64,000 nt of DNA from Nostoc sp. PCC 7524 (GTDB lineage: Bacteria > Cyanobacteriota > Cyanobacteriia > Cyanobacteriales > Nostocaceae). Below, in pieces: positions 10,001 to 56,223 of this stretch (its first letter is position 1; every line of letters begins with the position of its first letter). The notes under the pieces are model-generated. The model was not told where the DNA came from. It searched no databases and worked only from the letters and a program-made list of their open reading frames with translations. Where the stretch lies: positions 1,984,001-2,048,000 of the forward strand of contig NC_019684.1 of assembly GCF_000316645.1 (NCBI RefSeq), read 5' to 3'. The position numbers and the translations under genes are program-made.

Positions 10001-10292
10001 CACCTACATAGTTAATAATGCTATGGGGTAGGTGATGCACAATGGGGATTGATTGTAATAAGCTTGTGGTGCGAATTTCTGTGGAGTGCAACTCACCAGC
10101 CGCTTCTATCACCCATTCACCAGCTTTATCCATCACCAGAAAGCCGATATGCGCTCCTGTGTTCTCCATAAATATCTGGATTAAGGCAGGAAGTAACCGA
10201 GAAAGTACAATTTCCGCCGCTATTGCTTGGGATAGTTGTACTAGGGTAGTTAAATCTAATGTCAACTCTTGGTTACTACTGGTTAAATTCAT
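7056..10292 (-). CDS. Hybrid histidine kinase: GAF, four PAS domains, kinase core, receiver
   Basis: A large soluble sensor of about 1078 residues without transmembrane segments. Order: N-terminal helix, GAF domain (about 35-185), four PAS/PAC units (about 205-315, 330-445, 460-585, 595-710; each followed by D-I-T-E/Q-R/K-K-Q-A linkers), a phosphoacceptor helix (LASGIAHNLNNILSPI), an HATPase domain with N-box NLCINARDAM, G1 VADTGSGIAPEI and G2 GTGLGLSTVMGIIK, and a C-terminal receiver (LLVDDEKS; phosphoacceptor Asp in FIDMTMPDMDG; late Lys in FLSKPYT). Likely cytoplasmic sensing of a ligand, redox or light cue; no GAF cysteine of bilin-binding type is obvious. The frame extends upstream to 10334 with alternative ATGs; I chose the one before MNLTSSNQ. 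No partner regulator is adjacent. Confidence 0.93.
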   Translation of the reverse strand: MNLTSSNQELTLDLTTLVQLSQAIAAEIVLSRLLPALIQIFMENTGAHIGFLVMDKAGEWVIEAAGELHSTEIRTTSLLQSIPIVHHLPHSIINYVGVKQTSVNLNHATQTGEFTTDPYIQAHQSQSILCVPLVYDRQLKGIVYLENQQSGHFSAYHLALIEILSGQAAIAITNAQVYTQVKERESQLAQLLDGLPVGVAMHDTTGKMIYANSVAMQIAGDESVREATSEEISQAYKLYRAGTQAPYPTSQLPVVRALAGETLTIDDMELYQGDRVISLEVVSTPIYNEQGQIVYALCAVQDITQRKQAEVALKRSEASLRFAQRVARLGSWEFDVLSRKITWSEELFRIFGLDPTQPEPTYEEMLQLVHPDDRALMIDMTERMIQTGISVDFDYRIIHPDQTIRFVEGRGETICNSQGQVIKLIGSGLDVTERKLAEVALRQSQEIAQQQLTEIEAIYATTPIGMCVVDTNLRYVRINERLAEINGLPVKAQIGRRIREVLPELADELEPIYLQVIKSGLPVLDVETHGTTPAQPGVEKDWLSSYYPLKGSDGQVVGVNVTVQDITERKQAEIALKESEERFRQLAENIDAVLWIAAKGHFQIIYVSHAYTRIWGRNVQDVYDNPHSFFDAIYPEDLEKVRSIVPVTNPHYDVEYRIVRPDGEIRWLRDRSFPIRNAQGEIYRYGGIAEDITEKKQIEAQFLRAQRLESVGTLASGIAHNLNNILSPILLSLELLERKLPDQKSQQLLKMLESNVKRGSALVKQVLSFSRGVSGKHTIINIKHIVSEIQYIIQETFPKSIKLSTNLAPDLWNICADGNQLHQVLMNLCINARDAMPHGGSLSIYATNLFIDETSARRYLDAQVGEYVMVSVADTGSGIAPEILERIFEPFFTTKEVGQGTGLGLSTVMGIIKHHGGFVNVESTLGKGSQFQVYLPAVTDGQQQPVREIELPKGQGELILLVDDEKSIRETAKVLLSNYNYKVLTANNGIEAIALYVEHKAEISLVFIDMTMPDMDGLTTIRTLHRINPHLKVIASSGLPSNETIAEFSSLGVKAFLSKPYTLNELLKTFSLVLTGTV

Positions 10293-39718: not shown

Positions 39719-40876
39719 ATGTTTGATCATGCTGTGGGTTTCGCTGTTGATAATGACTTGGTTTTAGAATTGATTCCGACATCACCAAATCTAGAACGTA
39801 AATATTCTACGTCTGGTGGTTGTCAGCGTGCTTGGCTTAATCACATTTGTTTAACTACATTTTTAGATTGGTTACAAGGGGAAGTTACACCCAATGCTAG
39901 AGTGCATCCCAACACAGCTGCTCTGCCCAGTTTTTGGGAAGTAGTCAACGGTACAGCTATGAGTTGTGATAACTCCCGCTTGGTTCTGATTCCTACCTTA
40001 GCAATGGATGTAGATGAGTTACGTGTACCTCAAGAATGGGTGGATATTCCGGAATGGGTGGCTGATTATTACTTAGCGGTGCAGATAAATACAGATGAAG
40101 GCTGGATGCGAGTTTTTGGTTACACAACGCATCAACAACTGAAAACTTTAGGAGTTTATGATCCAGGCGATCGCACTTACAGTTTAGAATCTGATCAGCT
40201 CATCGCAGATTTGAATGTGCTATGGGTAACTCGTCAATTGTCTCCGGAAGAAATCACCCGTGCGTCGGTTGCTCCCATACCACCTTTACCCCAAACCCAA
40301 GCAGACAATTTACTGCAAAGATTAAGTAACGCAGATATCAAATTTCCCCGCTTAGAAGTTCCCTTTCCTCTTTGGGGAGCGTTAATCGCACATGGTGGTT
40401 GGCGACAACGTTTGTATGAATTGCGCCAAGGAATTGTGCAACCAGTATCAATTGGGCAATGGCTTCAAGAAGGGGTATCGAATTTTGCTCAACAACTAGG
40501 CTGGGAACGGCGACAGTTTTTTGCTGTCTCTTCAGGGATGAGGAGTTTAGAAAGCCAAACTCCTATTGTCGGCTTATCTCGACAAATTTTGGTATCTGGT
40601 ATTACTTATGAGTTACGATTTTTCCCTAAAGGCAATCCAGACGAAAAAATTTGGCGGTTTGAATTACTTAATTCCACTCCTGACAATCTAATTCCTACGG
40701 GGTTTCAACTCAGGCTGCTTACGGAAGATTTACAAGCATTTCCTAATAATGAAGATGCAGCCACAACGCCTGTAGAACAATTGTATGTAGAAGTGATGTT
40801 AGAACCCGGTGAAGGTTTAGTTTGGGAAGTCACACCTTTACCAGCAGAATATGAGCGCGAAATTTTACGTTTTTAG
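39719..40876 (+). CDS. DUF1822-family protein
   Basis: 385 residues. The sequence matches the DUF1822 pattern as I know it: CQRAWLNHICLTTFLDWLQ at the start, LVLIPTLAMDVDELRVPQEWVDIPEWVADYYLAVQI, GYTTHQQLK, and a C-terminal beta-rich half with LRLLTEDLQAFPNNEDAAT and LYVEVMLEPGEGLVWEV. The function is unknown. It is almost confined to cyanobacteria and is often encoded with sigma-like and CHAT genes. The tight spacing on both sides supports a functional link. Confidence 0.85.
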   Translation: MFDHAVGFAVDNDLVLELIPTSPNLERKYSTSGGCQRAWLNHICLTTFLDWLQGEVTPNARVHPNTAALPSFWEVVNGTAMSCDNSRLVLIPTLAMDVDELRVPQEWVDIPEWVADYYLAVQINTDEGWMRVFGYTTHQQLKTLGVYDPGDRTYSLESDQLIADLNVLWVTRQLSPEEITRASVAPIPPLPQTQADNLLQRLSNADIKFPRLEVPFPLWGALIAHGGWRQRLYELRQGIVQPVSIGQWLQEGVSNFAQQLGWERRQFFAVSSGMRSLESQTPIVGLSRQILVSGITYELRFFPKGNPDEKIWRFELLNSTPDNLIPTGFQLRLLTEDLQAFPNNEDAATTPVEQLYVEVMLEPGEGLVWEVTPLPAEYEREILRF

Positions 40877-40898
40877 TTGCAGGGGGGATTGGGGAGTG

Positions 40899-43448
40899 GT
40901 GAAGAAGAAAATTATTAATTTTTGTTTGCTGGCTGTGCTAACTATATTTATATGTGTTTTAGTGACTCCAGCCTTCGCAAATATTTCTCAAAAGACAATT
41001 ATTAATCAAGATTCACAATCTAAAATTGTCGAAAGCCAAACATTATATGAAAGTGGTAGATTTGCTGAAGCTGTGCAGATTTTACAGCAAGCAGTCCAAG
41101 AGTATCAACAACAGGGAGATACTTTAAAACAAGCTGTAGCCTTGGGTAATCTATCGCTGGCTTATCAACAAATTGGTAATTGGCAACAAGCTCAATTAGC
41201 TATTACCAATAGCTTAGATTTACAAGAATTTAATAATAAAAATTTAGCAATTTTAGCTCAAACTCTAGATATTCAAGGACGCTTACAACTTTTAACAGGT
41301 AAGCCAGAATTAGCTCTGACGACTTGGAAACAGACTGAAGATATTTACACCAAGATAGGAAACAAAAACAGTATTGCTTTGGCACTACTTTATCAAGCTC
41401 AAGCATTACGTAATCAAGGTTTTAATAAGCAAGCTATTGAGAAACTAGAACAGGTAAATCAAACTCTAAAATCTCAAGGTGATTCTTTGGCGAAGGCAGC
41501 AGTTTTACTATCCCTTGGAGATACATTAGAAAATGTAGGAGAATTAGAAAAATCTCGCTTAGCTTTAGAACAAAGTTTAGCAATTCATCAAAGGCTTAAA
41601 TCTTCAGAAAATATTGCTTTAAGTCTGTTAAGTTTAGGTAATAATGCGCGGATTCAACAAAAAAATTCCCAGGCAGTTGCATTTTATCAACAAACATTTG
41701 ACACCTCATCTTTACCCATCACAAAAGTTAAAGCACGACTCAATCATCTCAATTTATTAATTACAGAAAAAAAATTTGCAGCAGCACAAACCTTAATTCC
41801 AGAAATTCAATCTCTACTTATACAACTTCCACCCTCTCGCCCATCGATTTACGCCCACATTAACTTGGCTCACAGTTTGGGTGGTTTAAACACCCCCAAA
41901 TCCCAAATTGCTCAACTACTGGCTACGGGTGTACAAGCAGCGCGGAGTTTAAACGATATCCGCGCCGAAGCCTATGCTTTGGGTAATCTGGGTAACTTGT
42001 ATGAAAAAACACAACAATTTGCTGAAGCGATTAACCTGACACAACAGGCTTTAATATTGGCGCAAAGTAGCAACGCACCGGAAATTACTTATTTGTGGCA
42101 ATGGCAGATGGGTAGATTATTCAAAGCCCAAGGTAATTTTACAGGAGCGATCGCAGCCTATGATGCAGCCGTAGAAACATTGGAGTCGCTGCGTACTGAC
42201 TTAGTAGCAGTCAATCAGGATATCCAGTTTAATTTCCGCGACAATGTAGAACCAGTTTATCGTGAGTCAGTAGCTTTATTGCTGCAAAATTCTGGCAAAA
42301 AACCCGATATTCAAACCTTAGATAAAGCGAGAACACGCATAGAGGCACTACAGTTAGCAGAACTCGATAACTTTTTTAGAGAAGCTTGTTTACAAGGGCA
42401 GAGGGTACTTTTAGATCAAGTAGTAGACAAAGACAATCCCAACACTGCCATACTCTATCCCATTATTCTGCCAGAACAACTCCAAGTAATTGTTAAAATT
42501 CCTCAGCAACCACTGCGCCATTATACAGTTAACAAATCCCAGGTTGAAGTGGAACGCACCTTGGCAGAACTGCGGGAATACATTTTAGAACCGGATAGAA
42601 CTGAGGAAGTACAAACCCTTTCCCAAGAAGTCTATAACTGGTTAATTAAACCTATGGCATCTGATTTAGCCACAAGTCAAGTTAATACCCTGGTATTCGT
42701 ACTAGATGGGGCATTAAGAAATATACCCCTAGCTGCGCTTTACGACGGCGAGAAATATTTAGTAGAGAAATACGCCATTGCTTTGAGTTTAGGGCTTCAG
42801 CTATTAGCTCCCAAACCTCTGACTCAAAAACCTGTGAGTATACTAGCTGCGGGTTTAGTGCAACCACCGCCAGAGTTTCCCACATTCCCACCCTTACCAG
42901 GAATCAAGTTAGAATTTGACCTCATTGCTCAAACAGGAGCATCTACCAAAAAACTACTAGATCAAGACTTTACCAGTAGCACTCTAGGAAAAAACGTTAA
43001 TACTCTTCCTTTTAATGTCTTACATTTGGCAACTCACGGACAATTTAGCTCTCGTTCGGAAGATACTTTCATTTTAGCCAATGATGGTTCTATCAATGTT
43101 TTAGAATTCGATAAATTACTCCGCTCTCAGAGTGAAACTAATACGCAAATCTTAGAATTATTAGTTTTGAGTGCTTGTCAAACTGCCACAGGTGACAACC
43201 GTGCAACATTAGGGTTGGCAGGCACAGCCATCAAAGCAGGCGCACGTAGCACAGTTGCCTCACTGTGGCACATCAACGATCAATCCACTGCCGTCTTGAT
43301 TGGTGAATTTTACAATGAATTAGTCAATAGTAAAGTGACTAAAGCAGAAGCCTTACGTCGCGCTCAAGTCAAATTATTAACAAAGTATCCTAATTATAAT
43401 CGCCCCGGTTACTGGGCTGCTTATGTATTAGTTGGTAATTGGTTTTAG
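40899..43448 (+). CDS. Secreted TPR-CHAT protease-like protein
   Basis: About 849 residues from the GTG at 40899 (GGGGAG upstream); the frame is open from 40851 but earlier codons overlap the DUF1822 gene. A signal peptide (KKKIINFCLLAVLTIFICVLVTPAFA) is followed by a series of TPR repeats (about 35-440; QAVALGNLSLAYQQIGNWQ, EAYALGNLGNLYEKTQQFA). A C-terminal CHAT domain follows (about 530-849). Caspase-type catalytic residues are visible: His in NVLHLATHGQFS and Cys in LVLSACQTATGDN, with TVASLWHINDQST and GYWAAYVLVGNW after them. Likely a periplasmic or exported peptidase activated through its TPRs. The substrate is unknown; TPS exoproteins are a reasonable guess. Confidence 0.9.
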   Translation: MKKKIINFCLLAVLTIFICVLVTPAFANISQKTIINQDSQSKIVESQTLYESGRFAEAVQILQQAVQEYQQQGDTLKQAVALGNLSLAYQQIGNWQQAQLAITNSLDLQEFNNKNLAILAQTLDIQGRLQLLTGKPELALTTWKQTEDIYTKIGNKNSIALALLYQAQALRNQGFNKQAIEKLEQVNQTLKSQGDSLAKAAVLLSLGDTLENVGELEKSRLALEQSLAIHQRLKSSENIALSLLSLGNNARIQQKNSQAVAFYQQTFDTSSLPITKVKARLNHLNLLITEKKFAAAQTLIPEIQSLLIQLPPSRPSIYAHINLAHSLGGLNTPKSQIAQLLATGVQAARSLNDIRAEAYALGNLGNLYEKTQQFAEAINLTQQALILAQSSNAPEITYLWQWQMGRLFKAQGNFTGAIAAYDAAVETLESLRTDLVAVNQDIQFNFRDNVEPVYRESVALLLQNSGKKPDIQTLDKARTRIEALQLAELDNFFREACLQGQRVLLDQVVDKDNPNTAILYPIILPEQLQVIVKIPQQPLRHYTVNKSQVEVERTLAELREYILEPDRTEEVQTLSQEVYNWLIKPMASDLATSQVNTLVFVLDGALRNIPLAALYDGEKYLVEKYAIALSLGLQLLAPKPLTQKPVSILAAGLVQPPPEFPTFPPLPGIKLEFDLIAQTGASTKKLLDQDFTSSTLGKNVNTLPFNVLHLATHGQFSSRSEDTFILANDGSINVLEFDKLLRSQSETNTQILELLVLSACQTATGDNRATLGLAGTAIKAGARSTVASLWHINDQSTAVLIGEFYNELVNSKVTKAEALRRAQVKLLTKYPNYNRPGYWAAYVLVGNWF

Positions 43449-44417: not shown

Positions 44418-46628
44418 TTACACCCCACCTCGTGTAATGATGTCGCGGTAAACTTCGGTGGCTATTGTTGGCTTGCGCTTTAATTCTGGGTCATGATCTA
44501 AGTCAATGTGATATACACCAAAATCGCTATCGGGGCCAAACTTCAAACCCCATTCGCGGTTCGAGGTGATACACCAACAAACATAACCCACCACATTCAC
44601 ACCATCCTGGCGCGCACGCTGTACTTCTCGGATATGGCGACGCAGGTAATCTTCTCGCTTGACACCTTGTGTGGCTTTATCTGCCATATCAACGCAGCCA
44701 TTCTCAACAATCATAATTTCCTTACCTGGGAATAGTTGGGCGTGGAACTTGAGCATATCGTAAAGTACCTCAGACCACACTGGCGCATTACTAAAACGCC
44801 CAAAACCCGCTTCCATTAACTGTTGGACGCGGTTGATGCGTAAATTACTAATTCCCCAATAGTAATCAAATCCAACAAAATCCTGCTGATCTACGCACTC
44901 TTCTGGACAGAGGAATGTCGGTAACTTCCCAGCCATACCCAAATGCCACCAGTTACTTGTCAAAGAGGTAGAGAGGGCGCTATAAATCTTTAAAACTGGG
45001 TCAAAAATTTGTGTGAGCGATCGCAATATCGGCAATCGTTCTTGAGTCGAAACGGCTTGAAACTTAATTTTATCGGGATCTCCGAAAATTAGCTTGGCGA
45101 TAAAACGGGCTAAATCGATTTCTAAGCCGCTAAATTCCCCAGTTTTCGGGTCACGGTAGCCAAATCCAGGTACATTGTCTTTAACTGCCACAATCAAATA
45201 ACCCCTGTCTTGGATGCGGCGTAGTGGTGTCCCTGGTTGGGCTAAAGGTAACTCAAAACTAGCCGAGGAGCCTTTGGTGATGTCAGCCAAAGTTGAACGT
45301 CTGCCGATTTTGGGAGGTTCAGGAATGGGTTGATTGGGGAAGTGATGACTGTAGCTGGCTTGCCAAGCACCAGAATCTTTAAACTGTCGCACCGCTACAT
45401 CTATAGCATTGAGTAAAGCGCGATCGCCTTTAACTACCGCCGCCCCATAATTTTCCTCTGTTAACCCTTCCCCATTTCTACCTACTAGCCGATACTGGTC
45501 TGGATGCTGCTTCATGATGCCCAACAGGATAGTATCATCCGCTAAGATGGCGTTCACCTGTTCGTAATCCAACATTTGCAAGGCATCATCATATTCTGCG
45601 ACTACCTTCACCGCAGCTTTAGGTAGTTGACTAACTGTAGATTCCGCAGTAGAACTTTTAACTACAGCCACCTGCGCCACATCTTCGGGTTGTTGAATAG
45701 CACTTTTAGCTTTCACCAAGAGATATTGACCGGCCTGATAATAAGCTTCAGAAAAAGCTACTTCTTGGTGTCGCTCTTGGGTGACAGTTAAAGTAGCAAT
45801 AACTACATCAACTTTGCCCTTTTCTAGTAAACCACGCTCGGTAAATCGTTGTCCTTGGGCAATCAAATCTTCGGGACGACGCAGATTAGTCACATTGCGG
45901 TCTACGATTTTTTGCAACCATAAAGGTAAACCTAATAACATCGGATTAGCACCCACCTGCGCCTCTGGATTCACCTCTTTAATAATATTTCTAGCTCTAG
46001 TGTGGGCGACAAATAAATTATTCATCAACTTAGCGATCGCACTCATCTGATCCGCCATGCTTGCGCCTCGTTCCAAACCGGGGGGCATAAAATAAGCTCT
46101 TTCCCACCAAGGTTTAACATAGCCGTAAATCAGTTGACTAGGTTCATTAAACGTAATCCAATAGCGGGACAAATCACCCAAACGTTTCGCTACTTCCGTC
46201 GCATACTTAGCAAACATCACTGGGAAGTCGGGAGCAATTAAACCGCCTCTAGCTTCCACATGGATGGGATGGGTGAAATGATGGAGAGTTACCATTGGTT
46301 CCATTCCATGCGATCGGATAGTTTCAATCACTTGGCGATAATGCTCAAAGGCTTCTTCACTAAACTGACCAGGTTGAGGTTCTACCCGCGACCAAGCAAT
46401 AGAAAAGCGGAACATCTTACAACCGAGAGACTTAGCCAAAGCAATATCTTCAGGGTAGCGATGCCAAAAATCCGTAGCGCGATCGCGAACAGTTAGACCA
46501 CGCCGGCGTTCCCACACATCCCGAATATCTTCATAACGCTCATCATAAGCTTCGCATTGGTGGTCAGCTGTCGCCACACCAAACATGAATGATTCTGGTA
46601 AAGGTGCTAGTTTGCTCAGTTTGGACAT
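44418..46628 (-). CDS. GH1 glycosidase with a circularly permuted solute-binding domain inside
   Basis: 736 residues without signal peptide, so cytoplasmic. GH1 parts are residues 1-250 and about 540-736: FMFGVATADHQCEAYDERYE at the start, acid/base Glu162 in WITFNEP, nucleophile Glu642 in MIVENG, and CWCITSNREWGLKFG near the end. Between them sits a family-3 amino-acid/solute-binding domain in swapped order. Residues 262-432 are its second half (GKVDVVIATLTVTQERHQEV, AFSEAYYQAGQYLLV, NAILADDTILLG, FKDSGAW). After a linker of about 36 residues, residues 469-537 are its first half (DRGYLIVAVKDNVPGFGYRD, SGLEIDLARFIAKLIFGD, STQERLPIL). Both GH1 catalytic residues remain, so ligand binding may gate glycoside cleavage. 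Last gene of the minus-strand cluster. Confidence 0.88.
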   Translation of the reverse strand: MSKLSKLAPLPESFMFGVATADHQCEAYDERYEDIRDVWERRRGLTVRDRATDFWHRYPEDIALAKSLGCKMFRFSIAWSRVEPQPGQFSEEAFEHYRQVIETIRSHGMEPMVTLHHFTHPIHVEARGGLIAPDFPVMFAKYATEVAKRLGDLSRYWITFNEPSQLIYGYVKPWWERAYFMPPGLERGASMADQMSAIAKLMNNLFVAHTRARNIIKEVNPEAQVGANPMLLGLPLWLQKIVDRNVTNLRRPEDLIAQGQRFTERGLLEKGKVDVVIATLTVTQERHQEVAFSEAYYQAGQYLLVKAKSAIQQPEDVAQVAVVKSSTAESTVSQLPKAAVKVVAEYDDALQMLDYEQVNAILADDTILLGIMKQHPDQYRLVGRNGEGLTEENYGAAVVKGDRALLNAIDVAVRQFKDSGAWQASYSHHFPNQPIPEPPKIGRRSTLADITKGSSASFELPLAQPGTPLRRIQDRGYLIVAVKDNVPGFGYRDPKTGEFSGLEIDLARFIAKLIFGDPDKIKFQAVSTQERLPILRSLTQIFDPVLKIYSALSTSLTSNWWHLGMAGKLPTFLCPEECVDQQDFVGFDYYWGISNLRINRVQQLMEAGFGRFSNAPVWSEVLYDMLKFHAQLFPGKEIMIVENGCVDMADKATQGVKREDYLRRHIREVQRARQDGVNVVGYVCWCITSNREWGLKFGPDSDFGVYHIDLDHDPELKRKPTIATEVYRDIITRGGV

Positions 46629-46669: not shown

Positions 46670-47500
46670 CTACACAGAAACGATACTGCGTTCCGCTAAC
46701 CGCAAAGCTGCGTCCGGGTCATGACTGGGAAGATAAACCGTAGGAAATTCTTGTACGTACTGCAAAATTAACTGTAGTGTTTGGCGAGATTTGGCTTCAT
46801 CTTGAGCCACACCATCCACAATCTGATCTAACAAGAGTTGCTGTGTATAAGAAGCATCTCCAGCAAAAAATAAGGATAGTCCATCCAATTGCACCAGAAC
46901 TGATAAATGCCCCCCAGTATGCCCTGCTGTGGGAATTAAGCAAACATCTCCAGCCTTTGTCAGCGTGAAACTTTCGGCAAAAGGCCCAATCGGTTTTGGC
47001 TCATACTCGATTAAGCAAGGGTCAAGCCAATCAGGCCAACGCTGAGTTAAATAGCCTCTTAGCTGTCCTCCCCAACCACCAGTCAACTCATACTCTCGGC
47101 GAGAAATGATAATTTCAGCATTAGGAAAATGGTGTAGACCGCCGATATGGTCTGTGTGCATATGGGTTAGAATCACCCACCTGACATCTTCTGGTGCAAT
47201 CCCCACAGCACGCAACCGAGAATTCACCTCATCTTCTGGTTGCAAACATGGTTTAATGCTGAATTGAAAATAAGGATTCCACCAAGGAAAGTAACCCGGT
47301 TCTAAAGTGCGTGCTGTTTCACCTGTATCAATTAAGATAATTCCTTCTGGATGTTCAATTGCCCAGCTATAAATCGGTAAAGGTGCAGTCCAATTGCGGT
47401 CAAGGATGGTATTGACTAGACGCATGGCACCGTGACCTTTGCTGTAACATTGACAGGTTTTGATACTTACCAGTCCACTTTGAATGGCGTGAATCCGCAT
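46670..47500 (-). CDS. MBL-fold hydrolase, N-acyl-homoserine-lactonase type
   Basis: 276 residues. The metallo-beta-lactamase Zn sites are complete: HMHTDHIGG near residue 112, AGHTGGHLSVL near residue 187, FAGDASY (Asp), and a late His in YLPSHDPDA. The layout, with IILIDTGE before and a short insert after the HxHxDH, resembles AttM/AiiA-type lactonases that open lactone rings. Its place in an oxidative cluster suggests a lactone substrate made by the pathway, or a quenching role. It lies 10 bases after the upstream hydrolase gene. Confidence 0.85.
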   Translation of the reverse strand: MRIHAIQSGLVSIKTCQCYSKGHGAMRLVNTILDRNWTAPLPIYSWAIEHPEGIILIDTGETARTLEPGYFPWWNPYFQFSIKPCLQPEDEVNSRLRAVGIAPEDVRWVILTHMHTDHIGGLHHFPNAEIIISRREYELTGGWGGQLRGYLTQRWPDWLDPCLIEYEPKPIGPFAESFTLTKAGDVCLIPTAGHTGGHLSVLVQLDGLSLFFAGDASYTQQLLLDQIVDGVAQDEAKSRQTLQLILQYVQEFPTVYLPSHDPDAALRLAERSIVSV

Positions 47501-47510
47501 TTTCCCTCAT

Positions 47511-48434
47511 TTAGAGATACTGCTTGAAAAAATTTAGTACCGTGTCTGGGTGATCTACTACGTATTGATAAGCACCAAAACGGTGGTCTGTTTCTGGATA
47601 AAGAGGTTCTACGGCATTGGGTGTAACTGCTACCATACTAGCTACATCGGCAACACTACCCCACTGATCACCAGTTCCTTGTACATAAAATACAGGAGTA
47701 TTGCGGATAGCGGCAGCAGCATAAACAGGCTGGAGGTAGGCAGTTTTGGGAGCGCCTGCTAAACGATAGAGCATTTCCACGGGGATGTTAATTAATTTAC
47801 CTAACATCCCAAATCGATCAGCGCGGTAGCGTTCCCCAAATACGGAGGAAGTGTTAGGCTGTACAGTCACCGCAGCTTTGATATCTGTGGTTTCGGGCAG
47901 GGTATAGATGACGGTGTTGCCTCCCATAGAAAAGCCAACGGTGACGATGCTCTTGGGGTCTACATCAGAGCGACTTTTAACGTAGCGGATGGCTCCCAAC
48001 AAATCACGCTTTTCTAATACGCCATAGGTGACAGGAATTCTTGCTTCACTTTCACCAAAATTGCTGAGGTCAAACATCAGGACGTTATAGTTTTGGTCAT
48101 GTAAGGCTTTAGTCAAAGGAAAAATATTAATGGCTTTACTGCCGGGTAAATCTCCGATGGGGTCGTTGGCTTGAGTGCCAATGCGGTTCCAAGGCCAACC
48201 ATGTAAAATAATCGCAGTTGCCGTTGGGGTGTGAGTCGCAGGGATGAACCAACCTTTGAGACGGATACCATCTTGGGCAGGAAACTCCACATCTTCATAA
48301 CCCAAACCTAATGCTTGCTTGGGGTTAGTCCAAAGTCGCTGCCGTTTGGGTGCAATCACTAACCGGGCCGAATTAGCGATCGCCAACACAGCCCCCAGTA
48401 CAATCATCACAATCAGCCCAATTATTATGTTCAC
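47511..48434 (-). CDS. Membrane-anchored alpha/beta hydrolase
   Basis: 307 residues with an N-terminal hydrophobic anchor (about 3-22). The hydrolase fold shows an oxyanion segment IILHGWPWN, nucleophile Ser in VGFSMGGNTV near residue 168, an acid in YVQGTGDQWG or PETDHRF, and the catalytic His in TDHRFGAY. The family includes esterases and C-C hydrolases; the substrate is unknown. It is 14 bases after the P450 gene and 10 before the lactonase gene, so it is surely in the same operon. Confidence 0.82.
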   Translation of the reverse strand: MNIIIGLIVMIVLGAVLAIANSARLVIAPKRQRLWTNPKQALGLGYEDVEFPAQDGIRLKGWFIPATHTPTATAIILHGWPWNRIGTQANDPIGDLPGSKAINIFPLTKALHDQNYNVLMFDLSNFGESEARIPVTYGVLEKRDLLGAIRYVKSRSDVDPKSIVTVGFSMGGNTVIYTLPETTDIKAAVTVQPNTSSVFGERYRADRFGMLGKLINIPVEMLYRLAGAPKTAYLQPVYAAAAIRNTPVFYVQGTGDQWGSVADVASMVAVTPNAVEPLYPETDHRFGAYQYVVDHPDTVLNFFKQYL

Positions 48435-48448
48435 GGTGATCTTTTCCT

Positions 48449-49894
48449 CTAAACTGCCTGTTGATGAATCCCAAACTTGACCTTTAAGCCATCTTTTGGA
48501 GTGGGAAATAAATCTTGGTTAAATTCCAAATTCTGTGGTGGTAGTTCCCAGGTATATCGACGTAGCAAATATACCCCCATCACTTGTAACAGCACAGTCA
48601 CTAAATCTTCACCAGCGCAACGATGACCATCTCGCGGGCCACCCCCTTGGGGAACGTAGCTATTTTCTGGTAAAGTCGCAAAATTTTCTGGGGCAAAGCG
48701 ACAGGGTTTAAAAGTCTGTGGTTCAGCAAACACTTGGGGCATTTGCATAGTGGTATGAATTCCGGCAACAGCACCCCAACCTTTGGGAATACGGAAGTTA
48801 TGAAACTCACAGTCTTGTTTTACCTGACCAAAAAAGGTTGCGGCGTTAATGGGGTAGAAGCGGCGGATTTCTTTGGTGATTTGTTCTAGATACACCAGCT
48901 TTTGCAACTTGGCCATATCCAGCGCCCCATCAGGCACATATTGATTCACCTCTTTTCTAGCGCGTGCGGTCATCTCTGGATATTTGGCTAGGGTGAGAGA
49001 CAGCAGTGTCAGGGCTACGTAAAAACCGGAATAAGCCGCAAAAAATAGGTGCATCACCTCCCGGCGGAGTTGGTCATCTGTGAGGGTACTACCATCCTCA
49101 CCGCGAGATGTTAATACCAAACCCAGCAAATCCTTACGGGGTTGCTGACGATGTTGCTCAATTGCTTGGTCAATATAATTAAGTAACCAATCCCGGTTTT
49201 TTAGTGCTTTGCCATAGGCATTAAAACCTAAGTTAATGGGTATGGCAGAGAAACCTTTGATAAAGGTGTCGGTGATTTCGCCTACAGCCTCACTGCTTGC
49301 CCCTGGCGCTGTGCCAATAAATAAGGCATTGGTTAAAGAGGCGCTGAATTTGCGGTATTCAGTTAACCAGACAAAACTACCTAACTTTTCCCAACGGGGG
49401 AGGTAGTAATTAGCTGTTTGTTCAATCAGGGGGATGTATTGATCAAAGGCTTGGGGTGTAAAAGCTTGGAGAATGATCCGTTTGCGTCGCCGGTGTTCAT
49501 CACCATCTAATAAGGGTAAGGCATCCCAGGCTAATAGTTCTTGTATGGGTTTGGGGCTAGCATTGGCACGGGTGAAATATTCTTGGTTGAGAAAGAAGGT
49601 AAAAGCTTCTGGGCCGTTAAAGATGATGACGGGTTTACCGAAGAGGTGGGTTTTGAAGATGGGGCCATACTTCTGCACGCGTTCGCGGTAAAAGCTATGG
49701 ATATCTAGGGCTAGGGGAATGGTTTCACCGATGAGGGGAAGACCATAGGAGCCTGGGGGTAGGTTTGGGTTGCTGCCTTTGGGGAAGTAGTGCGATCGCA
49801 TGAGTAAGGCTACTATGGACAAAACAGCAACAAGACCTAAACTTTCAGCCAATTTATCTGGTTGTATTAAATTAATTTCTAAGAAAATGAACAT
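48449..49894 (-). CDS. Cytochrome P450 with atypical I-helix
   Basis: 481 residues from the ATG at 49894; a longer frame reaches 49954. The N-terminal membrane helix (about 15-33) is followed by PPGSYGLPLIGETIPLALDI, as in CYP120-like cyanobacterial P450s. The K-helix ExxR is in KEIRRFYP. The haem cysteine is Cys426 in PQGGGPRDGHRCAGEDL, which is closer to CYP152 fatty-acid peroxygenases. The I-helix reads MHLFFAAYSGFYVALTLL and lacks the acid-alcohol pair (D/E-T) needed for normal oxygen activation. It may therefore use peroxide or catalyse an isomerase-type reaction. The likely substrate is a lipid or terpenoid. Confidence 0.9.
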   Translation of the reverse strand: MFIFLEINLIQPDKLAESLGLVAVLSIVALLMRSHYFPKGSNPNLPPGSYGLPLIGETIPLALDIHSFYRERVQKYGPIFKTHLFGKPVIIFNGPEAFTFFLNQEYFTRANASPKPIQELLAWDALPLLDGDEHRRRKRIILQAFTPQAFDQYIPLIEQTANYYLPRWEKLGSFVWLTEYRKFSASLTNALFIGTAPGASSEAVGEITDTFIKGFSAIPINLGFNAYGKALKNRDWLLNYIDQAIEQHRQQPRKDLLGLVLTSRGEDGSTLTDDQLRREVMHLFFAAYSGFYVALTLLSLTLAKYPEMTARARKEVNQYVPDGALDMAKLQKLVYLEQITKEIRRFYPINAATFFGQVKQDCEFHNFRIPKGWGAVAGIHTTMQMPQVFAEPQTFKPCRFAPENFATLPENSYVPQGGGPRDGHRCAGEDLVTVLLQVMGVYLLRRYTWELPPQNLEFNQDLFPTPKDGLKVKFGIHQQAV

Positions 49895-49972
49895 AAGAGG
49901 AAAGTTCGCGCAAAGGCGCAAAGGAGCAAAGAATACCGCTAAAAAATTTTGCAATGATTGATATCTCTTGTA

Positions 49973-49994
49973 GAGACGCGATTAATCGCGTCTC
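49973..49994. repeat. Perfect 22-bp palindrome
   Basis: GAGACGCGATT and AATCGCGTCTC, related by its GAGACG ends to the 30-bp palindromes at 17778 and 36567. It lies just upstream of the P450 gene. Confidence 0.7.
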
Positions 49995-50021
49995 CCAAGG
50001 TGTGTGTTGCTAGCAAAGATT

Positions 50022-51605
50022 TTAAAGAGTCTTGAGATACTCTAATAAATCTTCTAGTGCTGCTTTGTCCCAACCTGTTCCGTGATAAGGCCAGGGGTAG
50101 TCATGTCCTTGGTTGGAGTTGCCTTTAACGCTGGTGTCTAATTTAAAGTAGTGTTGGTCATCGGGTGCGTCTGGTGATGCCAAGCCCACGTTTACTGGGT
50201 CGTAAACATTGTCTCCGCGATAAACAATGTTGCGCCGGGGTTTGAGATTAATTAGTTCTGCTAAGGTCAAGACGCTGCCATTGTGCAAGTAGGGAGCGCG
50301 GGCAAATACTGATTCCAAGGGAGCATTAATATAACCTTTGGTATCTCCGGCTGGGCCTGGTCTGATGTTTTCCCGTTTGGGTCGGAAAGGATGACCTTCA
50401 GGAAAGTAATTCACTACTGCATCTGGGAGTTCATCGTAATAGCGATATTTCAAGCGTTCGGGGTCGGTTTTAATGGCGGCGATGGGTACAACCTGCCCTT
50501 GGAGTTCGCCAGGAATCCAACTGTTATCTTCTTGATTGCGATATCCATGACAAGTAGCGCAATTTTGTTGATAGACAGCACGACCACGTTCTACTTTCTG
50601 GGGGTCAATTTTTGCAGCCTGTTCGGGAAAGACTTCAGCATATTTCGGCCCTTGCAAGTCCAGGGTGTATTCAATGGCTTGGGTAACGTTATGGGAAATT
50701 TCCGGTACTAATAGGTTATCTGGGGTAGCTCCGGCTGCGACAGCTGCTAAAACGCTGCGGCTGAGGCGGTCTTTAATGCTACCGTCATATTGCGCCCACT
50801 CACGATTTTTCTGTTCGTACAATGATGGCAACTTGGAATAAGACTTATCAGAAGCACCAGGGCGATCCATCGTAAAGTGTACCAACTCTTTAAAAGGTTG
50901 GGTACGAGCCGGGCCAATGGGTTCTAACTCGGAGTTTCGTAAGTCTTTACCACTATAAGGAGCATCCCATTTAGGTAGTGTGGCTGTGACTTGACTTCGT
51001 GCAGTTGATAACCAAAAACTAATGACGGTTTTATCGATAATGCCTAGAGGTTTTTGGAACTTGGCTTCATAGGCTTGAGCGATGTTTTCTAGGGTAAGGC
51101 GTTTTTCATCCAAAATGGCGGTTTTAAATGCGTCTACCCAAGCAAACAAGTCTAATGTTGTACTCCCCATACCTGTGACAATTACGCCCTGGTCTTCAGG
51201 AGTTCTTCTAATTTTCGATGTATGACACAATGCACAGCTAAAACCAACAAATCTGACAGGGGAGGGCTTTCCCGATTGAGGTTGATAGTTGGAAATACTA
51301 AAACCTACGGGTAAGCCTTCGTTTTCTCCCGGCTTACTTTTGATAAATCCAAATTGCTGTGTCCAATCCCCAGCTGCTTCCCCTGCGGGCTGAAATTGGT
51401 CAGGGAATAAATCTGGCAACACTTGAAAAACTGGTAAAGGTGCTAACTCAGTACCGATAGTGCCGTGGATAAATGCGTCTTGGGGTGTCCGAAATACGGG
51501 TTTAGCCCAAGTTGATTCTAGGTATAAAAATCCGAGAAACCCCACTAGCAATATCGATACAAGGGAGATAGCAGCAATCTTAATTCCTTTAAACTCTTTA
51601 AACAT
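50022..51605 (-). CDS. Membrane-anchored di-haem c-type cytochrome
   Basis: 527 residues. An N-terminal anchor (about 9-29) would place the protein on the periplasmic or lumenal side. Two haem c motifs are present: CALCH at residue 124, and CATCH near residue 350 after RGRAVYQQN. The C-terminal third (RAPYLHNGSVLTLAELI) is typical of di-haem peroxidase-like cytochromes, with possible Met ligands further on. Its middle is unusual for classic CcpA/MauG. It could supply or accept electrons for the P450 or the GMC oxidoreductase in this cluster. Confidence 0.85.
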   Translation of the reverse strand: MFKEFKGIKIAAISLVSILLVGFLGFLYLESTWAKPVFRTPQDAFIHGTIGTELAPLPVFQVLPDLFPDQFQPAGEAAGDWTQQFGFIKSKPGENEGLPVGFSISNYQPQSGKPSPVRFVGFSCALCHTSKIRRTPEDQGVIVTGMGSTTLDLFAWVDAFKTAILDEKRLTLENIAQAYEAKFQKPLGIIDKTVISFWLSTARSQVTATLPKWDAPYSGKDLRNSELEPIGPARTQPFKELVHFTMDRPGASDKSYSKLPSLYEQKNREWAQYDGSIKDRLSRSVLAAVAAGATPDNLLVPEISHNVTQAIEYTLDLQGPKYAEVFPEQAAKIDPQKVERGRAVYQQNCATCHGYRNQEDNSWIPGELQGQVVPIAAIKTDPERLKYRYYDELPDAVVNYFPEGHPFRPKRENIRPGPAGDTKGYINAPLESVFARAPYLHNGSVLTLAELINLKPRRNIVYRGDNVYDPVNVGLASPDAPDDQHYFKLDTSVKGNSNQGHDYPWPYHGTGWDKAALEDLLEYLKTL

Positions 51606-51638
51606 TAGTGTTTAGACAAAATTAAATTTATTGGTGGG

Positions 51639-51775
51639 GATTGGGGATTGGGTATTGGGTATTGGGGATTGGTCATAGGGCATGGGATTTCTCTCCCCCT
51701 GCTTCCCCTGCTTCCCCTGCCTCCCCTGCCTCCCCTGCCCCTCTGCCCCTCTGCTCCTCTACTCCCCTGCTTCTT
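51639..51775. repeat. Heptamer and nonamer repeats
   Basis: 51639-51674 holds GGGGATT/GGGTATT units. 51690-51775 holds CTTCCCCTG/CTCCCCTG units. They separate the cytochrome and nitroreductase-like genes and overlap the latter's 3' edge slightly. Confidence 0.8.
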
Positions 51776-53219
51776 ACTGCTTGCCCCAAAGCTCATCATG
51801 TTGAGCTTGGCGACTGAATAAAGCGGGATCGTAATATTTTTGGTAATATTCCAACTCTAGGTTGCTAAATTGCAGCCAGATGCCAGGAACAAAGAAGGCA
51901 TCGATATGGGCAGGGAAGCGCCCGTAGGTTTCGTAGATATAGTTACAGATATCTTTGGTGTACTGAATTGTCTCTTTGGAGTGGGGTTCGGCTTTCCGGA
52001 GAAAGGCTTCGGCACTGGATTGGTTTTGATAGGAACGGGCGAATACTTCTTTGTCGCCGTAGGCTCCTTGGTTGCCGTATTTGGCCTCAAGCACGCGATC
52101 AACAGCTTCATCCATAGACTTAACGTAGGGGGGGCAAAGTCCCTCTAATACGCCATCAATACCAACGGGGTTGGGTTGAGTTGCAGGTGGTGGGGCCCAA
52201 ATGTTATTTTTGGGGGTTGGTGGTTCCATACGGAATCCTAAGCCGTACCACTCTTTGGCGGGGTTACGTTCCAGAATATAGGGTTGGAAGACTGCGCCAT
52301 GTACCCAACCGCCAAGACCCATAGCCTGACCGATGAGCATTAAGTTTTGTAACAGAAAGAAACACTCATGGTCAGTACGCATGACGTGGGCGAGTCCCAA
52401 GGGGACGGTGTTGTTGGGATTGACGAAGCCGCCTTGGGCGCGGTCAATTCCACCAATGGGTTGATAAGGAATTTTGGGACTGATACCTAAGTGCATTCCA
52501 ATCCAAGCTTTCCAGTCTGCCCAAGTTCTGGGGCGGAATTTTTGCCAGTCATCGATAAATAAAGGTTTTTGTCCTTCTGGTTCGGAAAGGAGGATGAGTA
52601 GGACGTTGATATATTGCCATGTGCAGTCCACGACTGGGAAAAATAGGGTTGTACCAGGAAGGTTAGAAATTTGTTTGTTCCAGCCTAAGTAATAAGGATA
52701 GTCTCTAGGGAAATCGAGACGGCGATCGCTAATTCGATGTTTGACGGCCGCTGCCGCTTTCAGCCAGTGTTCTTCTGACCAATCCTGCCATCTGGGTGGT
52801 AAATCCCCCAGGGCGGCTAAGGCTTCCCGTCCTTTGAGTCGTCTGATTAGCCAAATCCCTTCATCGTTGATCATGAAAAAGGATGTGGCTTGGCAGTTAT
52901 CGGCACTACTACCAGAACGGGCAATGATATTGAGAAAGGGTGTACCTAATTCTTTCCCGCCTTCTGGTTTATCCAAGGGGCCATCGTGGGTGGTGATGCC
53001 GGTCATCCCTGTGGATACGACTAAAATTGCTTCTTCTAGGGGGCTGAGAGGTTCTGGTTGATTGGGGCTGGTATAGCTGAGTTCTCCGGCTGAGATGGAA
53101 GCACCACGGGCTAATCGACGGGTGCGGCGTTCTGCGATCGCGCTCATCAATGGGTAGTTAAATAGTTCTTTTAAGCCGGGGTGTTGTTTGGTATCGGGTG
53201 TTAGAGGTTCAGCGACCAT
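51774..53219 (-). CDS. Nitroreductase-fold-like protein, uncharacterised
   Basis: 481 residues, no signal peptide. Residues 10-60 (LFNYPLMSAIAERRTRRLARG, ISAGELSYTSPN, SPLEEAILVV) and 275-310 (MRTDHECFFLLQNLMLIGQA, MGLGGWVHG) resemble the FMN-binding parts of nitroreductase/SagB-type proteins (N-terminal arginines and central helix). The protein is about twice as long as ordinary nitroreductases, and the C-terminal third (YNQNSS, GRFPAHIDAFFVPGIWLQF) is unfamiliar. FMN-dependent redox chemistry is a tentative inference. It lies between the cytochrome and hydrolase genes, all on the same strand. Confidence 0.6.
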   Translation of the reverse strand: MVAEPLTPDTKQHPGLKELFNYPLMSAIAERRTRRLARGASISAGELSYTSPNQPEPLSPLEEAILVVSTGMTGITTHDGPLDKPEGGKELGTPFLNIIARSGSSADNCQATSFFMINDEGIWLIRRLKGREALAALGDLPPRWQDWSEEHWLKAAAAVKHRISDRRLDFPRDYPYYLGWNKQISNLPGTTLFFPVVDCTWQYINVLLILLSEPEGQKPLFIDDWQKFRPRTWADWKAWIGMHLGISPKIPYQPIGGIDRAQGGFVNPNNTVPLGLAHVMRTDHECFFLLQNLMLIGQAMGLGGWVHGAVFQPYILERNPAKEWYGLGFRMEPPTPKNNIWAPPPATQPNPVGIDGVLEGLCPPYVKSMDEAVDRVLEAKYGNQGAYGDKEVFARSYQNQSSAEAFLRKAEPHSKETIQYTKDICNYIYETYGRFPAHIDAFFVPGIWLQFSNLELEYYQKYYDPALFSRQAQHDELWGKQ

Positions 53220-53294
53220 GTTGAGTTACCTTTTGGGGTTGGAGATGAGGGAATGGAGAAAAACGCAAAGGGGCGCGGAGAGTTGATTATGAGA

Positions 53295-54989
53295 CTAATT
53301 AAACTTTTCTAATTCGGTTAGGATGGTGGGGAAGATGTCTTTGGCGGCGTTTTTGCCCATGAAGCAGTCCATGTGTGCGTAGCCGGGAATGACATGACGC
53401 ACGTATAAGTCGCTACCGTTTTTCTCACACAAGACTTTGTAAGTGGTTTCTGAACCTTCAGGGAGGAAAAAGTTGTTATCTGCGCCGTGAATTAAGGCGA
53501 TGGGAATGGCTAGACGTTCCAGGTGGGGCAGGTAAACATCTTTACCATCTTTGTTGACAATGTGACCCTCTCGGATGATTAAGGATATGTGTCTGAAGAA
53601 GGTTAAATTAGCAAGACCGAATATTTCATGGACTGCATCATGGGTGGCTTCATTGAGTTGGGCAATTTTGTAAACTTCGCCGTACATGAACAAAATCCGG
53701 CGGTCAACTGGGTTATTGTAGGGTTCTTTGGTGGGATATAGTCTTAAAGCCGCATCGTAAAGTTTATCTTGCCAATTGGCATTGGTATCGTAGTCTGGGT
53801 CAAGAGTGTCTACCCCTAACACTGTGAGAAAAGAAGCGAGGCGCAAACCTGCTCTGACTTCGTTGAGTGTTGCGGATTTGGGATGGGTGGTGAGTTGGGA
53901 ACAGACGGCGGAACGCACGCCTTGCAGTCCGGCTAGCATGGCCATAAAAAAGGACATGGAACCCACGCAGTGACCTACTACCTGCACTGTTTCTGCTCCG
54001 GTAATGGTACGTACTTGCTCAACTGCTGCTGGCCAATCGTAAAGAGCGATTTCATCGGCGGAAAACTGAGTGCTGGCTGAGGGTAAATCGGCACTGGCTC
54101 GATAATCAAATAGCCAAACATCGTAGCCATGAGCGTAAAGGAACTCTGGTAGGTTGGTTTCTACGGTATCAATGGAAAATGCCAAGGTGGAAGTTCCAAA
54201 ACCGGGTGCTAGCATCACAGGCCCTTTTGTCCCGCCTTGATAGCGAATCAGTCGCAGTTGCACTCCATCTGTAGTGTTGAAAAAATGCACTTGGGGCGCA
54301 GACATCCGCAAAGGACGTTTTTGGCGGGGTGGTGCATCGGGGTTAAATATTTTTGAGGGGGCAAATATACCACCATAAAGGTTAAACAGGACACCAGCAA
54401 AGAACTTACCAAAGCGTGCAGTTGCTTCTATTTTTTGTGTAATGCTGCTGGTGTTCGTAACTTCCAAGGTGGACATCTGGCGCAGAAAGTCTGCTGGTTG
54501 AATATGTAAAATGCCTTGTCCAAAAATGGGGCTGTTGAGGCTGTCACCGTCATATACAGTGATGTAAAGTGTGGTGGTGTCTGACCAGATGTCAAACCCA
54601 GGATCGTTGTGTATGACTTTGAAACCATTTAAGTAATAAACTTTACCATCTTGGGCAGTCATGGTCATGTTGTAGACCATGCGGCGTGTGTTGACGCTGT
54701 TGGGATCAACAATAAATAAGTTAAATTCGCCATCAGTAACTTTTAGGGGTGCAGATGCTAAAGCAGGCGCAGTGACGCTGCCAACCATTTTGGCTGAGTG
54801 TCCTTCTTCCTGAAGCATCTTGTCTAAATCATCGGAAGTGACTGTGAGGGTGAATTCAAAGGGGGAATTTTCTTGTTTTCCTTGCTGGGCTGCTTTTTGA
54901 TAGTCGTCGTTTTTAACGGCAGTGGAAAAATAGCCACGCATGGTTTCGGTGAACTGAATTCCTACTTTTTTGGTGGTAGTTGTGACCAT
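53295..54989 (-). CDS. Two-domain alpha/beta hydrolase with Cys nucleophile, sharing a domain with the GMC enzyme
   Basis: 564 residues from the ATG at 54989, chosen because GAGG lies upstream; the frame runs on through a heptamer array to 55103, which would add a Pro-Ser leader. Residues 8-207 ([14 protein letters not shown] ... [20 protein letters not shown] ... [13 protein letters not shown]) are homologous to residues 576-774 of the GMC oxidoreductase at 56224. The C-terminal half is an alpha/beta hydrolase: [14 protein letters not shown], nucleophile elbow [11 protein letters not shown] with Cys near residue 343, acid in [11 protein letters not shown], His in [11 protein letters not shown] GxCxG elbow is known from PHA synthases and dienelactone hydrolases. 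It may cleave or transfer an acyl product of the oxidoreductase. Confidence 0.88.
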
Positions 54990-55014
54990 TAGATACCTCG
55001 CTGATGAAAAAGTT

Positions 55015-55098
55015 TTGGGGATTGGGGATTGGGGATTGGGGATTGGGGACTGGGGACTGGGGACTGGGGACTGGGGATTGGGGACTGGGGACTGGGGA
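55015..55098. repeat. Heptamer tandem repeat (STRR)
   Basis: About twelve copies of GGGGATT/GGGGACT immediately upstream of the hydrolase ribosome-binding site. This is the longest array in the window. Confidence 0.9.
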
Positions 55099-55146
55099 GA
55101 CAAGGAAGAATTTACTTCCTCTGCTCCCCTGCTCCCCTACAAATAA

Positions 55147-56211
55147 TCAGGCAACGCAGATCCCATACTTGGGTAATAAATCGTGGACGATGTAGAAGTG
55201 ATGGGCTTCTAATGCGTCGTGAAATAGTTTCCAATTACTGGTTAAAAAGCTGGGATGATAGAGAAATTTTTCGTCGCCTCTGTCTATGGCTTTTTCTGTG
55301 CCGAGAGACTGGAATTTCCATGAACCTTTGCCTTTAGGAATGTAGTTAATTTCGGCTTGGCCAAAGCTGAATTTACCGTCTGCGATCGCAGATTGCCATT
55401 TTTGATGCCGCACATGACCGTTATCGTCTGTGATGTTCTCTAGCAGCAGGGCAATGAGGGTTTTGTCTGGTTCTGGTAGTCCGGGAACTTGGGCTTCTGG
55501 ATTGCCTGCTATGTACCGTTGCAAGGCTCTGCACATTTGGTTGGCAGCTTCTAAGAAGTCTTTGGGGTTATTTCTGGTGATTTGTTCGCCGCGGCCGTTG
55601 AAGTAACCCCAACGTAAAAAGGGTTTGTCAGGATGGCTGAGAACTGCACCATGTCCGAGGGGTAAGGCTTCATTCACGAAGTAGTTTTTGAGTCTATCCA
55701 TGAGGCTGCGATCGGGTTTTCCATCTCCATCGATAAGGTTTCTGGCATCGTTGACGCGATGATTGACTCCCGCAAAACCTTGGTGCGCCCAAGTATCAAC
55801 ATATACGTGCATGGTTATGCCTAGGCGATGTAGTGCATAGGGAAGATGACGGCGGTCTATGGCCTCCTTGACCATTTCTTGTGCTACGTAGCTGTTGGGA
55901 CGACAAATCAGCTTCTCGATAAAGTTTCCTGGTGGGTCTTGCCCTGCGGGTAATCCTCCATTTCCCGGTAAAAAATGAAACGGAATCCAAACGCGGTAAT
56001 TGGCTAGTTGCTCAAAGTTCCGGTAGTCGAGCATTTTATGGGCGGAACTCATCCGGCTGAACATGGCTCCGTTATCAAACTGGATGAAGCCGTCGTTGGT
56101 GGCATCATCTACATATTGTGCGCTGTAAGCAATAATACTAGCAGCGTCATGTTCAAATCCAGCGAGTCGGGCGACAACGTAGGTAACACCGTGATGAAAG
56201 TCAATTTGCAT
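55147..56211 (-). CDS. DUF6765-family protein
   Basis: 354 residues. The start MQIDFHHGVTYVVARLAGF, YSAQYVDDAT and ITMHVYVDTWAHQGFAGV, rich in His/Asp, resemble what I know as DUF6765, whose His-Asp pattern is like the metal-binding helices of Zn-dependent phospholipase C/S1-P1 nucleases. A late His-rich end (FHDALEAHHFYIVHDLL) may add metal ligands. No signal peptide. The function is unknown. It starts 12 bases after the GMC gene, so it probably belongs to the same pathway, perhaps as a hydrolase. Confidence 0.75.
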   Translation of the reverse strand: MQIDFHHGVTYVVARLAGFEHDAASIIAYSAQYVDDATNDGFIQFDNGAMFSRMSSAHKMLDYRNFEQLANYRVWIPFHFLPGNGGLPAGQDPPGNFIEKLICRPNSYVAQEMVKEAIDRRHLPYALHRLGITMHVYVDTWAHQGFAGVNHRVNDARNLIDGDGKPDRSLMDRLKNYFVNEALPLGHGAVLSHPDKPFLRWGYFNGRGEQITRNNPKDFLEAANQMCRALQRYIAGNPEAQVPGLPEPDKTLIALLLENITDDNGHVRHQKWQSAIADGKFSFGQAEINYIPKGKGSWKFQSLGTEKAIDRGDEKFLYHPSFLTSNWKLFHDALEAHHFYIVHDLLPKYGICVA

Positions 56212-56223
56212 ATTAAATATTTG

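Follow-up and report, generated by a model that had tools for sequence, protein, structure and literature searches.

In the window analysed here, a 64,000-nucleotide stretch of Nostoc sp. PCC 7524 (contig NC_019684.1, positions 1,984,001 to 2,048,000), the open reading frame (ORF) at 44418..46628 on the minus strand encodes a 736-residue glycosidase of glycoside hydrolase family 1 (GH1), into whose barrel a family-3 solute-binding protein (SBP), itself circularly permuted within its lobe 1, has been inserted. We consider this architecture confirmed. The protein is probably a retaining GH1 beta-glycosidase of the cytosol, controlled in cis by a Venus-flytrap domain that binds acidic amino acids. 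The wider proposition, that a permuted Venus-flytrap in a TIM barrel lets acidic amino acids gate a widespread natural class of cytosolic glycosidases, which would link the release of glycosylated metabolites to nitrogen status, is put forward tentatively. A preliminary description, made from the sequence alone, had placed the gene at the correct coordinates and proposed an allosteric enzyme; overall, its interpretation is partly supported by the results below. Coordinates are those of the window, and features lie on the minus strand unless otherwise indicated.

The ORF, delimited by the ORF list, Pfam and an AlphaFold2 (AF2) model, starts with an ATG at 46628, with an AGGAG motif 8 bases 5' of it, and stops at 44418. 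The GH1 motifs noticed at both ends of the chain correspond to a Pfam match (PF00232, E 2.4e-59) divided into two stretches, and Pfam, AF2 and structure searches agree on their limits. The first part (residues 1-263; 45840..46628) holds barrel strands 1-5 and the acid/base Glu162 in TFNEP (46143..46145); the second (residues 538-736; 44421..45017) holds a long helix (538-565), strands 6-8 and the nucleophile Glu642 in VENG (44703..44705), both catalytic residues being assigned by motif and conservation. The insert interrupts the barrel between strands 5 and 6. AF2 modelled the whole chain with confidence (pLDDT 92, pTM 0.91), giving a (beta/alpha)8 barrel like those of solved GH1 structures, and the closest known systems are GH1 beta-glucosidases (PDB 5xgz, 1e4i, 6z1m). 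Against the NCBIfam equivalog for GH1 beta-glucosidases the ORF scored 201 bits, under the cut-off of 478 bits. The residues that we take to form the glycone site (Q24, H117, N161, W685, E692, W693) are all present, together with a phenylalanine (Phe118) where a tryptophan usually succeeds the glycone-site histidine. A Glu-Trp pair marks plain beta-glycosidases as opposed to 6-phospho-glycosidases; the pair at 692-693 matches the former, and a 6-phospho-glycosidase is not favoured. Neither an export signal nor a lipobox was found on inspection, as the preliminary description had also noted: the chain starts MSKLSKLAPLPESFMFG, with barrel strand 1 beginning at residue 15.

The inserted domain matches PF00497 (SBP_bac_3) in two stretches as well (E 7.9e-23), in the reverse of the native N-to-C order. 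The second half precedes the first, since the NCBIfam models place 30-98 of the 259 positions of NF008885 at residues 468-536 and 78-247 of the 250 positions of TIGR01096 at residues 267-427. The second half (residues 264-432; 45333..45839; NCBIfam, Pfam, AF2 and structure search) contains part of lobe 1 and all of lobe 2, the latter at about residues 297-391 (45456..45740), delimited by alignment as the part absent from a lobe-1-only clade. It is followed by a linker joining the old termini (about residues 433-467; 45228..45332; NCBIfam and AF2), of roughly the 36 residues anticipated, and by the first half (residues 468-537; 45018..45227; NCBIfam and Pfam), which supplies the rest of lobe 1. 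The native chain was thus opened at the RLPIL/SGxVD junction, just where the preliminary description had located the cut. Residues 262-541 in native order score 85.2 bits with Pfam, divided into two stretches. Swapping the halves back (462-537 followed by 268-461) fused the match into a single stretch (17-240, profile positions 1-131 of 132) and raised it to 92.8 bits, the two queries differing slightly at their ends rather than being letter-for-letter the same piece. The best PDB sequence match, 5eyf, likewise became continuous, its two stretches of 114.7 bits giving way to one of 127.3 bits. The insert also folds alone in AF2 (pTM 0.83) and, as in the whole-chain model, forms one domain predicted with confidence; the outcome that the preliminary description had given as its refutation did not occur. 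Only GH1 chains appeared among the matches listed in the structure search with the whole chain, and the SBP fold was therefore tested with the insert alone. Sequence and fold together match type II binding proteins across both lobes, the best structure alignments covering the second half (and so both lobes in part) and sequence placing the first.

The pocket was assigned by sequence alignment to Mycobacterium tuberculosis GlnH, with residue roles taken from the accessible part of its structural report (PMC6069109), according to which S164, R169 and D250 contact the amine and carboxyl groups of the ligand, and R147, T162 and W232 its side-chain carboxylate (R147 that of Asp). The equivalents in the ORF are T281, R286 and D364 for the former set, and R531, T279 and Y346 for the latter. 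Three of these anchors, Arg286 (45771..45773), Asp364 (45537..45539) and Arg531 (45036..45038), were further supported by conservation: among the sequences with a full insert, R286 is kept in 180/180, position 364 is Asp in 178/180 and Glu in 2/180, and R531 is kept in 174/180, while position 281 is Thr or Ser in 170/180. R286 and D364 lie on opposite lobes and face the ligand. Ligands of the Asp/Glu/Asn class are suggested by these residues.

The protein belongs to a sizeable family. A homologue search returned 1044 proteins, and all of the best 120 listed (the window's own included) carry both Pfam families; the nearest relatives, from Nostoc and its kin, are 77-81% identical. A scan of genome contigs yielded 58 loci, many of them from metagenome-assembled genomes (MAGs): 18 in Cyanobacteria, 17 in Eremiobacterota, 8 in Chloroflexi, 4 in Verrucomicrobiota, one each in Proteobacteria and Deinococcales, and 9 with no phylum named in the record title, on which these assignments are based. 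Occurrence is patchy, with matches in 2/13 genomes of the genus, 22/145 of the family and 2/388 sampled from the class. A second search, seeded with an insert-free relative, returned 1485 proteins (best 120 listed). From both listings 165 proteins were taken and aligned with ORFs of 56/58 loci (L061 and L063 gave none), making 221 classified rows, which are partly redundant, as some loci encode listed proteins, and whose counts reflect search design rather than abundance: 180 carry the full insert, 27 are insert-free, 3 keep lobe 1 only, 10 are partial and 1 is mixed, the last two classes being excluded from residue counts. Domain order and insertion site are identical in the 180 full sequences, from several phyla. 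The catalytic E162 and E642 are invariant in full (180/180), insert-free (27/27) and lobe-1-only (3/3) sequences; the six glycone residues are equally invariant in the full and lobe-1-only sets, and are found in 27/27 insert-free relatives, bar one gap at Q24. A search with the halves-swapped SBP returned 24 proteins, 13 of them with a GH1 Pfam match but shorter than a complete member would be. P0169 starts inside GH1, and further matches are ordinary SBPs, among them P0175 (36%, covering 97% of the query) and two that are cyanobacterial by name, P0180 and P0182. No other enzyme with a permuted SBP was seen among the 24 matches (8 inspected), in a search whose length window would miss large enzymes. 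Among the 22 matching family genomes, one copy is truncated and another is split between frames; the latter is probably the Westiellopsis copy at L026 (about 8001-10201), which lies in two reading frames, split near the SBP linker, and may reflect inactivation or a sequencing error. A separate cyanobacterial GH1 subfamily (L083, L084, L085, L088-L091) is also extended between strands 5 and 6, by a long segment in which no SBP was seen in the rows inspected; four of the rows carry the motif ITSKWWDW.

The history of the insert was examined on trees built from the GH1 part only, by short searches on a thinned row set with SH-aLRT support, in which many inner branches are poorly supported. The second tree comprised 85 rows (56/180 full, 22/27 insert-free, 3 lobe-1-only, and an outgroup of four very distant rows from the cyanobacterial subfamily just mentioned). 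Insert-free rows are dispersed in it among insert-bearing ones, requiring 6 changes, at least 4 of them forced by support of 95 or higher; the first tree required 7, at least 5 forced by well-supported branches. Forcing the insert-bearing rows together (59 vs. 22) was rejected (log-likelihood lower by 180.9, p-AU 3.1e-5). The first tree had joined L035 and L058, raising a concern of long-branch attraction; the second was built without both, and the conclusions were unchanged. As the insertion site and permutation are identical in all aligned rows, one gain followed by several losses is the simple reading. We also considered the insert-free relatives as the pre-insertion state, which was rejected: they are nested among insert-bearing rows, and 2/27 retain an SBP remnant, in support of repeated loss. 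At the insertion site P0133 reads GQLERGAVDVAMAALTRTP, where its full relative P0094 reads GPTEHGAVDVVIATLTQTP (60 points, 0/2000 shuffles as high); P0127 retains a shorter remnant, with a weaker match to L057 (38 points, 1/2000 shuffles as high), both pieces having been chosen by eye from the alignment. No remnant was visible on inspection in the other 25/27. Lobe 2 alone is absent, hinge to hinge, from three Eremiobacterota MAG proteins forming one clade (support 97), with catalytic residues retained (L054, 4444-6288; L056, 6831-8606; L062, 7980-9797).

Where the insert is kept, both of its lobes are under purifying selection. In a codon-by-codon comparison of the ORF with 15 relatives, the ratios of nonsynonymous to synonymous substitution rates (dN/dS) against L006 came to 0.067 in GH1 and, within the insert, to 0.122 in lobe 1, 0.075 in lobe 2 and 0.355 in the linker. 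Across the remaining nine Nostocales pairs, values ranged over 0.055-0.153 in the lobes, where defined, and over 0.061-0.092 in GH1, saturation of silent sites having left several estimates undefined, chiefly in distant pairs. By identity, lobe 2 is less conserved than lobe 1, and both lobes lie below GH1 in most pairs.

In the mechanism that we propose, a glutamate/aspartate-type SBP, permuted in lobe 1, would have entered, once, the loop that connects strand 5 of the barrel to helix 5, and strand order suggests that the clamp sits on the active-site face. Because both chain crossings run through lobe 1, this lobe would be bolted to the barrel, leaving lobe 2 to swing open and closed; and because Arg531 lies 7 residues ahead of the helix through which the chain returns to the barrel, ligand binding could pull directly on the active-site rim. 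Closure on an acidic amino acid may then shift the strand-5 loop and helix 5, altering the active site. Allosteric coupling is thus what we infer from the arrangement of the chain, and its sign is a guess: an empty clamp might restrain an otherwise competent enzyme. The GH1 core is probably competent alone, since lineages lacking the clamp retain the catalytic residues.

Regulation of the enzyme by the SBP is the best reading because the ligand anchors are conserved, both lobes are under purifying selection, and the domain has been lost repeatedly with the catalytic residues retained. Several observations weigh against it. Free cytosolic glutamate is usually abundant, so that a micromolar sensor would be saturated. 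To this it can be answered that one known GlnH binds Asp with a Kd of 0.55 mM and Glu with a Kd of 2 mM (PMC6069109, in the part available). The equivalents of the side-chain contacts vary among the full sequences (Thr279 in 112/180, Tyr346 in 127/180), and the 17 rows that diverge furthest from the query, mostly Eremiobacterota and otherwise MAGs, have Gln279 and never Tyr346; for this reason amino-acid specificity probably differs between clades. The lobe-1-only proteins keep R531 in 3/3 and R286 in 2/3, and repeated loss is also compatible with a domain of low value. The last point leads to a doubtful alternative, in which the SBP has lost its ligand sensing and acts as a scaffold, be it in folding, in oligomerisation or in the binding of partners: several losses of the insert, a clade with lobe 1 only, incapable of clamping, and the lower conservation of both lobes relative to GH1, with lobe 2 lowest in identity, all speak for it, and are set against the retention of R286 and D364 (Glu in 2) on opposite lobes and the purifying selection acting on both.

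Somewhat less doubtful, although still unlikely, is that the SBP serves to capture substrate or product, the enzyme cleaving a sugar-amino-acid conjugate or amino-acid-bearing glycoside and the clamp gripping the amino-acid part with no allostery at all. The matches supporting this are no better than ordinary amino-acid binders in the same list, and the plain beta-glycosidase glycone residues unchanged in the insert-free relatives imply that substrate recognition seems clamp-independent. Chance, misassembly or a chimeric ORF, which the unusual domain order alone might bring to mind, has a negligible probability and is refuted by the same order and site in 180/221 rows, by the matches in 22/145 family genomes and by the confident single-chain model.

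Regulation by the clamp finds parallels, each of them partial, in known systems. GlnH/PEB1-type Asp/Glu SBPs (6h1u, 5eyf, 2v25) share the fold and the ligand-anchor residues of the insert, but are exported, unpermuted and free-standing, whereas the ORF's SBP is permuted, cytosolic by inspection and within an enzyme. The lytic transglycosylase MltF is, as proposed for the ORF, a natural glycan-cleaving enzyme with a regulatory domain (N-terminal in its case), which is said, in the accessible part of one report, to switch the catalytic domain in response to muropeptides (PMC10746161); the MltF family model of NCBIfam matches the ORF's SBP weakly (E 5.4e-7). MltF differs in its tandem domains, cell-envelope location, muropeptide ligand and catalytic family. 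As far as the available text of its description goes, TpMglB-2 (Tp0684) is, like the insert, a naturally circularly permuted two-lobed binding protein, but a free-standing lipoprotein of sugar-binding type I fold, outside any enzyme (PMC4990184). The engineered MBP-beta-lactamase RG13 (PMC6335823) and XynA-XBP271 (PMC4896006) also join a hydrolase to a binding protein by two connections so that ligand alters activity; in the parts of these reports available they are laboratory-made, belong to other enzyme families and have the enzyme, whether permuted or not, placed into the binding protein. The likeness to designed switches drawn in the preliminary description therefore stands for the fusion of binding protein and enzyme and fails for its direction, as in the accessible part of PMC6335823 permutation is applied to the enzyme or to GFP, which is then inserted into the binding protein. 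Engineered and natural layouts can be seen as one circle opened at different points.

No inserted SBP is apparent by title among known GH1 structures, in the best 60 of 302 chains and 50 listed entries. The sequences and their double annotation are already on record, under database names such as "family 1 glycosylhydrolase" and one automatic name fusing beta-glucosidase with an ABC-type amino-acid transport subunit; the permuted insertion of an SBP into a GH1 enzyme was itself found nowhere described in full-text searches aimed at it in the open-licence literature. Random permutation and insertion have given engineers enzymes that a ligand can switch. A natural counterpart, represented by many diverged sequences and accompanied by clean repeated losses and a half-clamp, would show how evolution connects a sensor to a barrel and through which contacts the signal passes, the lineages with the whole clamp deleted and the one with the moving lobe alone deleted serving as natural control experiments. 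The family would also provide a ready-made switch scaffold and, if the proposal is true, would mean that amino acids feed into glycoside metabolism as a signal in Cyanobacteria, Chloroflexi and Eremiobacterota.

The glycosidase gene is the last of a same-strand run, and on its upstream side the gaps measure 41, 10 and 14 bp. Its upstream neighbour, 41 bp away (46670..47500; Pfam and NCBIfam), encodes an AttM-like, lactonase-like protein of metallo-beta-lactamase fold and is a probable operon partner: a relative lies directly upstream in 9/18 Nostocales loci, and other arrangements also occur. The run (46670-58548) encodes a cholesterol-oxidase-like GMC oxidoreductase, a DUF6765 protein, an alpha/beta hydrolase, an unassigned protein, a di-haem cytochrome c peroxidase with a RoxA-like motif, a CYP152-like P450, a second alpha/beta hydrolase and the AttM-like lactonase, the section from the unassigned protein to the lactonase recurring in several Nostocales loci. 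GMC oxidoreductases lie near the glycosidase gene in Nostocales and in L022, L024 and L050; a protein cluster fusing GMC, patatin and hydrolases by single linkage was excluded from the counts. No ABC permease or ATPase genes were found among the ten neighbouring window genes scanned with Pfam. The run resembles an oxidative pathway for lipids or terpenoids, and the neighbourhood hints, too loosely for a claim, at an oxidised lipid or terpenoid as the aglycone. A 481-residue protein (51774-53219), with no Pfam or NCBIfam match, is 84-88% identical across eight related Nostocales loci, and a TPR-CHAT protein of 865 residues (40851-43448, plus strand) adjoins the glycosidase gene on the opposite strand.
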